DNA from: Candidatus Nanopelagicaceae bacterium
Lineage (GTDB): Bacteria; Actinomycetota; Actinomycetes; Nanopelagicales; Nanopelagicaceae
Length of the DNA: 64,000 nucleotides
Direction: 5' to 3'
Assembly: GCA_030730425.1 (NCBI GenBank)
Contig: JANQVH010000046.1
Location: 62,001 to 126,000, forward strand
Below are positions 15,368 through 37,761 of the stretch, in pieces. Made by a program: the position numbers and the translations under genes. Below the pieces are notes generated by a model. That model worked only from the letters and a program-made list of their open reading frames with translations, did not search any database and had not been told where the DNA came from. Every line of letters begins with the position of its first letter. Within the stretch, counting starts at the first letter, position 1.

Positions 15368-15861
15368 GTAGCGAATTTGATGCAATATTTGCCGCAAATA
15401 GTGAGTATGTAAAGGGCTATAAATCAAGTGATTTGACTGGGCGGGCAGCAAAAGGGCTAGCAATTATTACCTGTATGGATTCAAGGATAGATCCTTTGAA
15501 AATTGTTGGAATGAGCGCAGGGGATGTAAAAATCCTTCGTAACGCAGGTGCGCGCGTAACTGATGACATGCTGCGAACTCTCCTTCTTGCTACCTATCTT
15601 CTAGAGGTAAAGAGAGTCTTAGTAATGCCACATACCGATTGCCGTATGGCAAGTGGAACAGAGGAGCAGATTCACCAAGCGCTATTTGATGCATCGGGCA
15701 TTGATACTAGATCTATTGAGATTAGAACTGTGACAGATCAAGTAGCTGCATTAAAAGATGATGTAGCAAGTATTAAAAACTATCCACTACTTCCAAAAGA
15801 TTTAGAAGTTGTGGGAGCGATATTTGATGTTAAAACTGGAGAGCTGAGAAAAATCGTTTAG
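15364..15861 (+). CDS. Beta-class carbonic anhydrase-like protein
   Basis: Interconverts CO2 and bicarbonate with a zinc ion. The 165-residue sequence has the beta-class ligands C37 and D39-x-R41 in TCMDSR, and H90-x-x-C93 in MPHTDCRM, so the zinc site is complete. It is of the short, Rv1284/YtiB-like type. The start is TTG overlapping the previous stop (TTGA). Its last four bases overlap the convergent dnaB stop codon. Confidence 0.9.
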   Translation: MSSEFDAIFAANSEYVKGYKSSDLTGRAAKGLAIITCMDSRIDPLKIVGMSAGDVKILRNAGARVTDDMLRTLLLATYLLEVKRVLVMPHTDCRMASGTEEQIHQALFDASGIDTRSIEIRTVTDQVAALKDDVASIKNYPLLPKDLEVVGAIFDVKTGELRKIV

Positions 15862-17255
15862 TTATCCTTAACAAACTTCTCAGGAGCGGCATACTTCGGC
15901 GCAATATCGCCAAATTTTGCAAAGTGAAGAAGTGAAGCAACAGTAATTGTCTTGGTAGGTCCATTTCGATGTTTAGCGACAATTAGATCTGCTTCGCCAG
16001 AGCGATTCTGTGAATCATATAGATCATCGCGGTGTAGCAAGATAACAAGGTCGGCATCCTGCTCGATAGAACCTGATTCACGAAGATCAGAGAGAAGCGG
16101 CTTCTTATCAGAGCGCTGCTCTGGAGAACGATTCAGCTGTGAGATGGCAACGACAGGAACATTAAGCTCCTTTGCAAGAAGCTTTAACTGACGAGAGAAC
16201 TCAGAGACTTCTTGCTGGCGATTTTCTACTCTCTTTCCTGAGGTCATCAGCTGGAGATAATCGATAACAACTAACTTCAAATCATGGCGCTGCTTAAGTC
16301 TGCGCGCCTTTGCTCTAATTTCCATCATTGAAAGATTCGGTGAATCATCGATAAATAGCGGCGCTTCATTGATTTCGCCCATTCTTCGAGCAAGGCGTGA
16401 CCACTCCTCATCACTTAGCGCACCTGAGCGAATATTGTTAAGAGCAACTCTGGCCTCTGCTGAGAGCATGCGCATGGTAATTTCAGATCGGCTCATCTCA
16501 AGTGAGAAGATAACTGAGCAATCACCATTTGTAATTGATGCATGTCTTGCAATATCAAGGCCAAGGGTTGATTTACCAACTGCAGGACGAGCTGCAATGA
16601 CAATCATATTTCCAGGATGGAAACCATTTGTTAGCGCATCTAAATCTTTAAAACCAGTTTTGATTCCTTCTGCCAGCTCTCCTGATTGCAACTTCTCAAT
16701 CTGATCAAGCGCAGTTGGAATTAAGGAACTTAACTGAACAAAATCTTCCCCGGCTCGTCTCTCAGTTACTTGATAAACCTCTTGCTCGGCCATATCAACA
16801 ATTGAATCAACATCGCCCTCTGCGGCATAACCTAATTGAACAATCTTGGTTCCTGCTTCAACAAGTCTTCTAGCGATGGCTCGCTCTCTAACAATCTTTG
16901 CGTAATAGCTAGCATTCGCTGCAGTTGGAACAGCAGAGATAAGGGTGTGGAGATATGGAGCGCCGCCAGCCCTTGTAATCTCACCACGCTTTGTTAGCTC
17001 AGCAGAGACTGTTACTGCATCTGCTGGTTCACCTTTGCCATAGAGATCAACAATTACTTCAAAGATTAATTCATGCGCTGGCCGATAAAAATCTCGATGT
17101 CTAATTACTTCAACAACTTCGCCAATCGCATCTTTTGATAAGAGCATTCCACCAAGAACTGATTGTTCAGCAACTAAATCTTGTGGAGGCGTGCGATCAA
17201 ATTCAGGTGCGTTTGATCTACGCTCATCAAAATTTGGGACCTCAGCCAGACTCAT
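15858..17255 (-). CDS. dnaB: Replicative DNA helicase DnaB
   Basis: Hexameric helicase of the replication fork. The 465-residue protein has an N-terminal DnaB domain (about 20-125, VAEQSVLGGMLL), a linker, and a RecA-like ATPase with Walker A ARPAVGKST (about 222), Walker B LVVIDYLQLM, the arginine-finger region and SDLRESGSIEQDADLV. No intein is present, unlike several mycobacterial DnaB proteins. The start ATG has AGAGGA about nine bases upstream. The gap upstream contains four TGTGGGTAA motifs (17319-17445), which may connect its expression to DnaA. Confidence 0.97.
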   Translation of the reverse strand: MSLAEVPNFDERRSNAPEFDRTPPQDLVAEQSVLGGMLLSKDAIGEVVEVIRHRDFYRPAHELIFEVIVDLYGKGEPADAVTVSAELTKRGEITRAGGAPYLHTLISAVPTAANASYYAKIVRERAIARRLVEAGTKIVQLGYAAEGDVDSIVDMAEQEVYQVTERRAGEDFVQLSSLIPTALDQIEKLQSGELAEGIKTGFKDLDALTNGFHPGNMIVIAARPAVGKSTLGLDIARHASITNGDCSVIFSLEMSRSEITMRMLSAEARVALNNIRSGALSDEEWSRLARRMGEINEAPLFIDDSPNLSMMEIRAKARRLKQRHDLKLVVIDYLQLMTSGKRVENRQQEVSEFSRQLKLLAKELNVPVVAISQLNRSPEQRSDKKPLLSDLRESGSIEQDADLVILLHRDDLYDSQNRSGEADLIVAKHRNGPTKTITVASLLHFAKFGDIAPKYAAPEKFVKDN

Positions 17256-17502
17256 GTGCGTATCCTCTTACCCAGCACTGACAGGGGCTAATTCCTTGAT
17301 TTTTGCTGTGTATTTGGCTGTGGGTAAAAGTTCCATATCTGTGGGTAAGTACCCCTAATCCTGTGTGGAGCTTGTGGAGGAATTGTGGGTAACTTCCAAT
17401 TTCTCAGCAAACACGCAGACCAGAGGGCTTTTGCTCTGTGGGTAAAGATTTATTTCTAATTCTCAATAGTTGAGATTTCTACCTACTTTGCGATTGGAAA
17501 AT
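17256..17502. promoter_or_regulatory. dnaB upstream region with four TGTGGGTAA motifs
   Basis: Perfect TGTGGGTAA copies begin at 17319, 17340, 17384 and 17437, all in the same orientation. The motif differs by one base from TGTGGATAA, the DnaA box reverse complement present near dnaA in this window. Between them lie further partial matches (TGTGGAG at about 17363 and 17374). The first two copies are 21 bases apart, about two helical turns. The array lies in the promoter region of dnaB, downstream of the rplI terminator, and no open frame explains it. DnaA binding, replication-linked control or titration are inferences. Confidence 0.6.
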
Positions 17503-17504
17503 AA

Positions 17505-17533
17505 AAAACGGCCCGCACGTGGCGAGCCGTTTT
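17505..17533 (-). terminator. Intrinsic terminator of the rpsF-ssb-rpsR-rplI operon
   Basis: An eight-base-pair perfect stem, AAAACGGC (17505-17512) with GCCGTTTT (17526-17533), and a 13-base loop. Read on the minus strand the stem is followed by a T-rich tract (TTTTAT). It lies 13 bases after the rplI stop codon. The symmetrical A/T flanks mean it could also act on the plus strand. Confidence 0.85.
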
Positions 17534-17546
17534 CTCTAACGTTTAA

Positions 17547-17990
17547 CTATTCAACAACGTTAACGGTGATGTTTGCTGCCACTCCAGTCATAAGTGAAAC
17601 CCTAGCTGAATGCTTACCAAGGTTCTTCACATGCTTAACCAGTTTGATCTTATGGCGATCAACATCAATGCCAGTTGCGCTCTTAATTACTAACGCAATG
17701 TCTTTCTCTGTTACTGAACCAAAGAGGCGACCAGTTGCTCCGACCTTTGCTTTGATTTCAAGGTTTGCTTCTTCAAGCTTTGCCTTGATCTCATTGGCAT
17801 GATCTTTATCGCGAATCTCTCGATTTTGACGAGCTTTGCGAATTCCATCAATCTGGCTCTCCCCGCCTTTAGACCAAGCAATAGCTGATCCTCTAGGAAG
17901 AAGGAAGTTTCTGGCATAGCCATCTTTAACATTAACTACATCGCCTGGATTTCCAAGGCCTGCAACTTCACGAGTAAGGATTAGTTTCAT
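17547..17990 (-). CDS. rplI: 50S ribosomal protein L9
   Basis: A 147-residue ribosomal protein that binds 23S rRNA domain V. The N-terminal RNA-binding domain has GNPGDVVNVKDGYARNFLLPRG (in part: VNVKDGYARNFLLPRG), then a long connecting helix (about 45-75) and a C-terminal domain. It is the last gene of the rpsF-ssb-rpsR-rplI operon and is followed by a clear intrinsic terminator. Length is normal. Confidence 0.97.
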   Translation of the reverse strand: MKLILTREVAGLGNPGDVVNVKDGYARNFLLPRGSAIAWSKGGESQIDGIRKARQNREIRDKDHANEIKAKLEEANLEIKAKVGATGRLFGSVTEKDIALVIKSATGIDVDRHKIKLVKHVKNLGKHSARVSLMTGVAANITVNVVE

Positions 17991-37417: not shown

Positions 37418-37761
37418 CTTCTTCTCTCACTCCTTTAAAAACAGCTCTTAATTTGAGCTGTTGGGATTGATCAGGCCTTGAGGTAATCGCGTAGCTGCGA
37501 TTGGGGGCCACAAGAGCAGGGGGCAACGGTATCTGTTGACCTACCGATTTGGAAAACTGGGGATATCTTTTAGGGCATTTAGGGCCTTTGGGAAGATTTT
37601 GTGGATAACCACTTGCTTTTATTTGGATAAAGGCATACTTTCCGCCTCTATCCACAGGCAAGAAGGTTTTTAAGCTCTTTTCCCCCGAGATTAAGCCTAA
37701 AGTCGAAGTATAGACCACAGCCTGTGGATAACTTTGTGGATAACTAGTGAGATGAGGGGTT
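37418..37761. promoter_or_regulatory. rpmH-dnaA intergenic region with DnaA boxes
   Basis: A 344-base gap without a gene. Perfect TGTGGATAA (DnaA box TTATCCACA) occurs at 37600-37608, 37723-37731 and 37735-37743; CTATCCACA (one mismatch) is at 37648-37656. The last pair is 12 bases apart and sits 19-39 bases upstream of the dnaA ATG, suited to DnaA autoregulation. The dnaA ATG at 37762 has GAGGGG nearby. The region could form one half of a bipartite origin together with the dnaA-dnaN gap. Confidence 0.85.

Follow-up and report, generated by a model that had tools for sequence, protein, structure and literature searches.

An array of DnaA-box-like sites conserved in the dnaB leader of Nanopelagicales and its predicted role in helicase expression

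Comparative alignment indicates that the four copies of TGTGGGTAA preceding dnaB, which encodes the replicative helicase of this tiny freshwater actinobacterium, are the best-kept portion of a longer array, with six or seven sites resembling DnaA boxes. These copies are quite probably the most conserved members of a set of six to seven DnaA boxes clustered in the dnaB promoter and leader, through which DnaA would adjust the transcription of dnaB. The coordinates given below refer to the window, the whole 64-kb stretch of DNA that was analysed, and the features are listed in Table 1.

An exact match search located + strand copies of TGTGGGTAA at 17319, 17340, 17384, and 17437 and no further copy in the window. 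This agrees with the positions and the single orientation given in a sequence-only reading of the same DNA, and the gene coordinates agree with its placement of the array in the gap before dnaB, about 20 kb from dnaA/oriC. The array-bearing gap between rplI and dnaB is non-coding, and the dnaB-strand reading of TGTGGGTAA is TTACCCACA. Shuffled sequences contained a mean of 0.23 copies of TGTGGGTAA, and four copies were reached in 0/100. The draft genome (1.17 Mb, 54 contigs) has nine copies in total, four of which are in the dnaB gap; the other five are singletons on five separate contigs, three of them within long ORFs. The genome-wide count and clustering check proposed in the sequence-only reading thus indicate that the word is not randomly scattered. 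The helical phases of the four copies, calculated with 10.5 bp per turn, are 0.00, 0.00, 0.19, and 0.24, which places them roughly on one face of the helix.

Table 1. Features of the dnaB leader and the neighbouring genes, in window coordinates
Feature	Position	Strand	Remarks
DnaA-box-like site 1, TTACCCACA	17437..17445	-	right after the conserved -10-like element; invariant in nine same-genus leaders; column in relatives TTATGCACA, TTGTGCACA, TTATACACA
DnaA-box-like site 2, TTACCCACA	17384..17392	-	invariant in nine same-genus leaders; well kept order-wide
Degenerate box 3, TCCTCCACA	17373..17381	-	11 bp past site 2; relatives align TnATCCACC/A
Degenerate box 4, CTCCACACA	17362..17370	-	relatives align TTGTGCACA/TTGTACACA; CACAGG end strongly conserved
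DnaA-box-like site 5, TTACCCACA	17340..17348	-	invariant in nine same-genus leaders; relatives mostly TTATCCACC
DnaA-box-like site 6, TTACCCACA	17319..17327	-	two columns vary within the genus
Degenerate box 7, AAATACACA	17307..17315	-	12 bp past site 6; relatives align TTATCCCCA
Palindrome TCTCAACTATTGAGA (TCTCA-N5-TGAGA)	17461..17475	-	precedes box 1; aligns across most Nanopelagicales
Putative -10 element TAAATCT (relatives TACTTT)	17446..17452	-	predicted dnaB promoter; basis, conservation only
TGTCAGTG element	17276..17283	-	upstream of the dnaB start codon; resembles the PafBC promoter motif of PMC8151990
Divergent copy of the conserved TGACCTGCGCTTT element, here CTGGTCTGCGTGTTTGC	17407..17423	-	
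Intrinsic terminator of rplI	17510..17535	-	-21 kcal/mol, z = -4.7
dnaB, replicative helicase	15858..17255	-	
rplI	17547-17990	-	
dnaA	37762..39192	+	intact DNA-binding domain; oriC DnaA boxes on both flanks; ~20 kb from the array

The dnaB leaders of ~33 Nanopelagicales were aligned, and seven box columns were recovered in one shared orientation, reading towards dnaB. The window retains TTACCCACA at sites 1, 2, 5, and 6 and has degenerate forms at sites 3, 4, and 7. The order-wide base counts approximate TT(A/G)(T/C)NC(A/C)CA, with columns 3 and 5 often ending in C; in the order-wide logos, variation is all but absent at positions 6 and 8 and, in most columns, at position 9; position 4 admits only T or C, and position 5 is unconstrained. 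The commonest step between adjacent boxes was 12 bp (41 pairs in 30 Nanopelagicales leaders), a count that is descriptive, since the regular expression used for spacing was loosened after the alignment to admit TTATCCACC and TTATCCCCA. The same 12-bp step separates the oriC pair at 37723/37735. Among nine same-genus leaders, variable columns amounted to 2/36 in the boxes vs. 56/91 in the spacers (Fisher p = 2e-9, an optimistic value because these leaders share ancestry and the window itself served to define the box columns, with the contrast still plain). Sites 1, 2, and 5 were identical in 9/9 of these leaders. Within the genus, the box columns are therefore kept beyond the neighbouring sequence, and the conservation of the gap in relatives that the sequence-only reading had proposed to look for was observed. 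The complete relative used for comparison was Candidatus Planktophila lacus (1.46 Mb). The closest named DnaB matches were from Candidatus Nanopelagicaceae/Nanopelagicales MAGs (94%). One MAG labelled as uncultured Clavibacter (L012, CAKZXY010000065.1) encodes a DnaB 99% identical to that of the window, and the label is probably wrong.

Across the Actinobacteria, the densest box cluster of the locus lay no more than 450 bp upstream of dnaB in 61 of the 77 actinobacterial dnaB loci. At least three boxes within 750 bp were found in 35 of the 44 leaders from outside Nanopelagicales; this limit was raised from 420 bp once the Streptomyces cluster had been found near -693, where the helicase start codon is apparently located some way upstream of the conserved match. 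The box density in those 44 leaders was 5.5/kb vs. 0.15/kb elsewhere. The exceptions are L027, with one box, and L044 and the two Klenkia loci L083 and L088, with none. Two further elements were seen in these leaders. An TGACCTGC-type element is kept from Nanopelagicales to Pseudonocardiaceae (window copy at 17407-17423; loci L049, L051, L053-L057, L062, L063, L067, L081, and L086). Words of the form GACACGCCG, sometimes repeated, immediately precede the first DnaA box in L049, L054-L056, L071, L080, and L086, which belong to Pseudonocardiales, Mycobacteriales, and others.

Box clusters, defined as three or more boxes separated by gaps of no more than 150 bp, were searched for genome-wide. The only clusters in P. 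lacus (1.46 Mb) were those at the dnaA flanks (oriC) and in the dnaB leader, and only oriC and the dnaB leader were likewise found in the 0.86 of 1.17 Mb scanned of the genome under study. Third-order Markov genomes (20 trials) yielded zero to three clusters of three boxes and, in 0/20, a cluster of four or more; a dnaB cluster of four therefore stands out, whereas clusters of three would not. Single box words were not enriched genome-wide in P. lacus, where their counts were near the Markov expectation, and single boxes dispersed over the genome were rejected as a titration pool.

The array could instead mainly titrate or inactivate DnaA in the style of datA or the B. subtilis clusters, its position at dnaB being incidental. 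Near oriC it would double soon after initiation and lower the amount of free DnaA. This explanation is improbable, though it deserves some weight: the dnaB cluster is the sole non-oriC cluster found in P. lacus and in the 0.86 Mb scanned here, and its distance to dnaA is ~20 kb in the window as well as in P. lacus (cluster at 1,439.6 kb of the 1,460-kb circle, dnaA at 0.1-1.5 kb). Conserved gene order could, however, account for the distance to dnaA, and the cluster tracks the dnaB leader across many actinobacterial orders, which would be needless for a pure sink.

The assignment of the sites to DnaA is suggested by their behaviour in relatives. TTACCCACA departs from the canonical DnaA box at position 4 and, given this position, may bind DnaA weakly. 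In the aligned dnaB columns it is exchanged for TTATCCACA, TTGTGCACA, TTATGCACA, TTATACACA, and similar words, and the same spelling is present at the dnaA-flanking oriC (the dnaA-dnaN gap) of relatives, twice in L263, once in L264, and twice in L269. The DnaA of the genome under study was matched almost end to end in its DNA-binding domain (domain IV), and TGTGGATAA occurs at 37600, 37723, 37735, and 39233, flanking dnaA. The TTACCCACA repeats before dnaB are thus very probably DnaA binding sites in this organism, judging from sequence comparison, and are best read as degenerate DnaA boxes. The sequence-only reading had also considered a site for another factor; that option is made less likely by the exchange of the sites with canonical DnaA boxes and by their presence at the oriC of relatives. 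It would require another DNA-binding factor to recognise TTACCCACA, with the likeness to a DnaA box being coincidental, which is very unlikely: the single uniform spelling in the window, unlike the oriC boxes of the same genome, would suit such a factor, but the equivalent region is bound by mycobacterial DnaA (PMC7738170).

An accessory replication start or DnaB-loading site, with no regulatory function, would share the box density and the 12-bp head-to-tail spacing, both of which resemble oriC, and the local A+T content is as high as in the oriC gaps (maximum per 40 bp of 0.78 in the dnaB gap vs. 0.70 and 0.75 in the dnaA-flanking gaps). However, the genome has an intact oriC at dnaA, with the usual boxes, and the array sits in a gene leader, which makes this explanation highly improbable. 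As a marker of a second origin, the GC skew was too noisy, and its minimum in P. lacus was located at 1,411 kb, ~49 kb from dnaA.

The strong intrinsic terminator at the end of rplI implies that dnaB must have a promoter of its own in the array region. A sigma-70 consensus scan gave no promoter match, and the geometry of promoter and boxes was therefore deduced from conservation. The palindrome TCTCAACTATTGAGA is a candidate for either a factor site or the -35 region. The palindrome TCTCA-N5-TGAGA was rejected as a regulon site, with only four copies counted in P. lacus and a small number in the genome under study, mostly within ORFs. A PafBC-type promoter was also rejected for the window, where TGTCAGTG is present with no TAnnnT at the required spacing. 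If an upstream promoter were used, most boxes would be transcribed, and the conserved element might work as RNA in the dnaB leader; this was rejected as having a negligible probability, because the conservation falls on DnaA-box positions, the stability of the leader is ordinary (z = -0.37), and an Rfam search gave no match at the gathering score.

A DnaA-controlled helicase promoter, the first option of the sequence-only reading, is supported by a motif that is non-random, conserved in relatives, and in line with mycobacterial experiments (PMC7738170). DnaA would bind the array as a head-to-tail cooperative multimer, the sites being often 12 bp apart and all directed towards dnaB, and dnaB transcription would thereby be set by the amount and nucleotide state of DnaA. 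As to the sign of the effect, activation is very slightly favoured over repression. In most other lineages in which the PafBC-type motif was seen, it is preceded by the boxes, and the M. tuberculosis I282T mutant under-expresses dnaB, both of which suit activation; the TACTTT-like element directly before box 1 in Nanopelagicales would put box 1 on the predicted start site, which suits repression.

The binding of DnaA upstream of dnaB in mycobacteria is already known (PMC7738170). The breadth of the arrangement, its regular architecture, and the spelling with C at position 4 are new; the arrangement is a novelty in this lineage, and its conservation is unusually strong. These data suggest that the mycobacterial link between DnaA and dnaB is encoded in the dnaB leaders of the majority of the actinobacterial lineages examined, streamlined freshwater bacteria among them. 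More tentatively, the array might belong to an old, phylum-wide actinobacterial feedback, with DnaA sensing a phased head-to-tail run of boxes in the dnaB leader and matching the supply of helicase to initiation potential; in many lineages, this feedback would be placed atop a DNA-damage promoter of the PafBC type, and certain of the smallest genomes of free-living organisms would keep it as their only DnaA-box cluster outside oriC. DnaA control of helicase supply becomes directly testable, with a handful of mapped boxes to mutate, and a comparative box matrix with an unusual C at position 4 has been gained.

Several known systems resemble the array in part. The DnaA-box clusters of B. subtilis and the datA locus of E. 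coli are likewise DnaA-box clusters away from oriC; they act on initiation through the sequestration or inactivation of DnaA, and this initiation role is theirs. In Caulobacter crescentus, dnaB likewise has predicted DnaA boxes upstream and DnaA-responsive expression as a member of the DnaA regulon (Hottes et al. 2005, as cited in PMC8203912); the phylum is distant. The induction of M. tuberculosis dnaB by mitomycin is partly PafBC-dependent (PMC8151990), which fits the TGTCRG-type match to PafBC-type promoters, a loose TGTC(A/G)G...TA, in 25 of the 44 other actinobacterial dnaB leaders; the DnaA boxes of those leaders are mostly upstream of the match. In Nanopelagicales, TGTCAGTG is kept ~20-30 nt before the start codon, whereas a -10 element at the spacing of PafBC-type promoters is absent. 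Two adjacent WYL-domain ORFs of 341 and 319 aa in the genome under study (G000:C13:28064-29198) are candidates for PafB and PafC.

The mycobacterial system also has a DnaA-binding region before dnaB. DnaA of M. tuberculosis (IDAP-seq) and of M. smegmatis (ChIP-seq) had five top regions, one of which was upstream of dnaB (the Rv0057 region in M. tuberculosis), among the few strong sites besides oriC and dnaA (PMC7738170). The I282T variant of M. tuberculosis DnaA showed weaker binding at the dnaB site, and dnaB was under-expressed (PMC7738170). Binding was demonstrated experimentally in mycobacteria, whereas here it is predicted from sequence; unlike in mycobacteria, the boxes described here share one orientation and a regular spacing, with the spelling TTACCCACA in the window.
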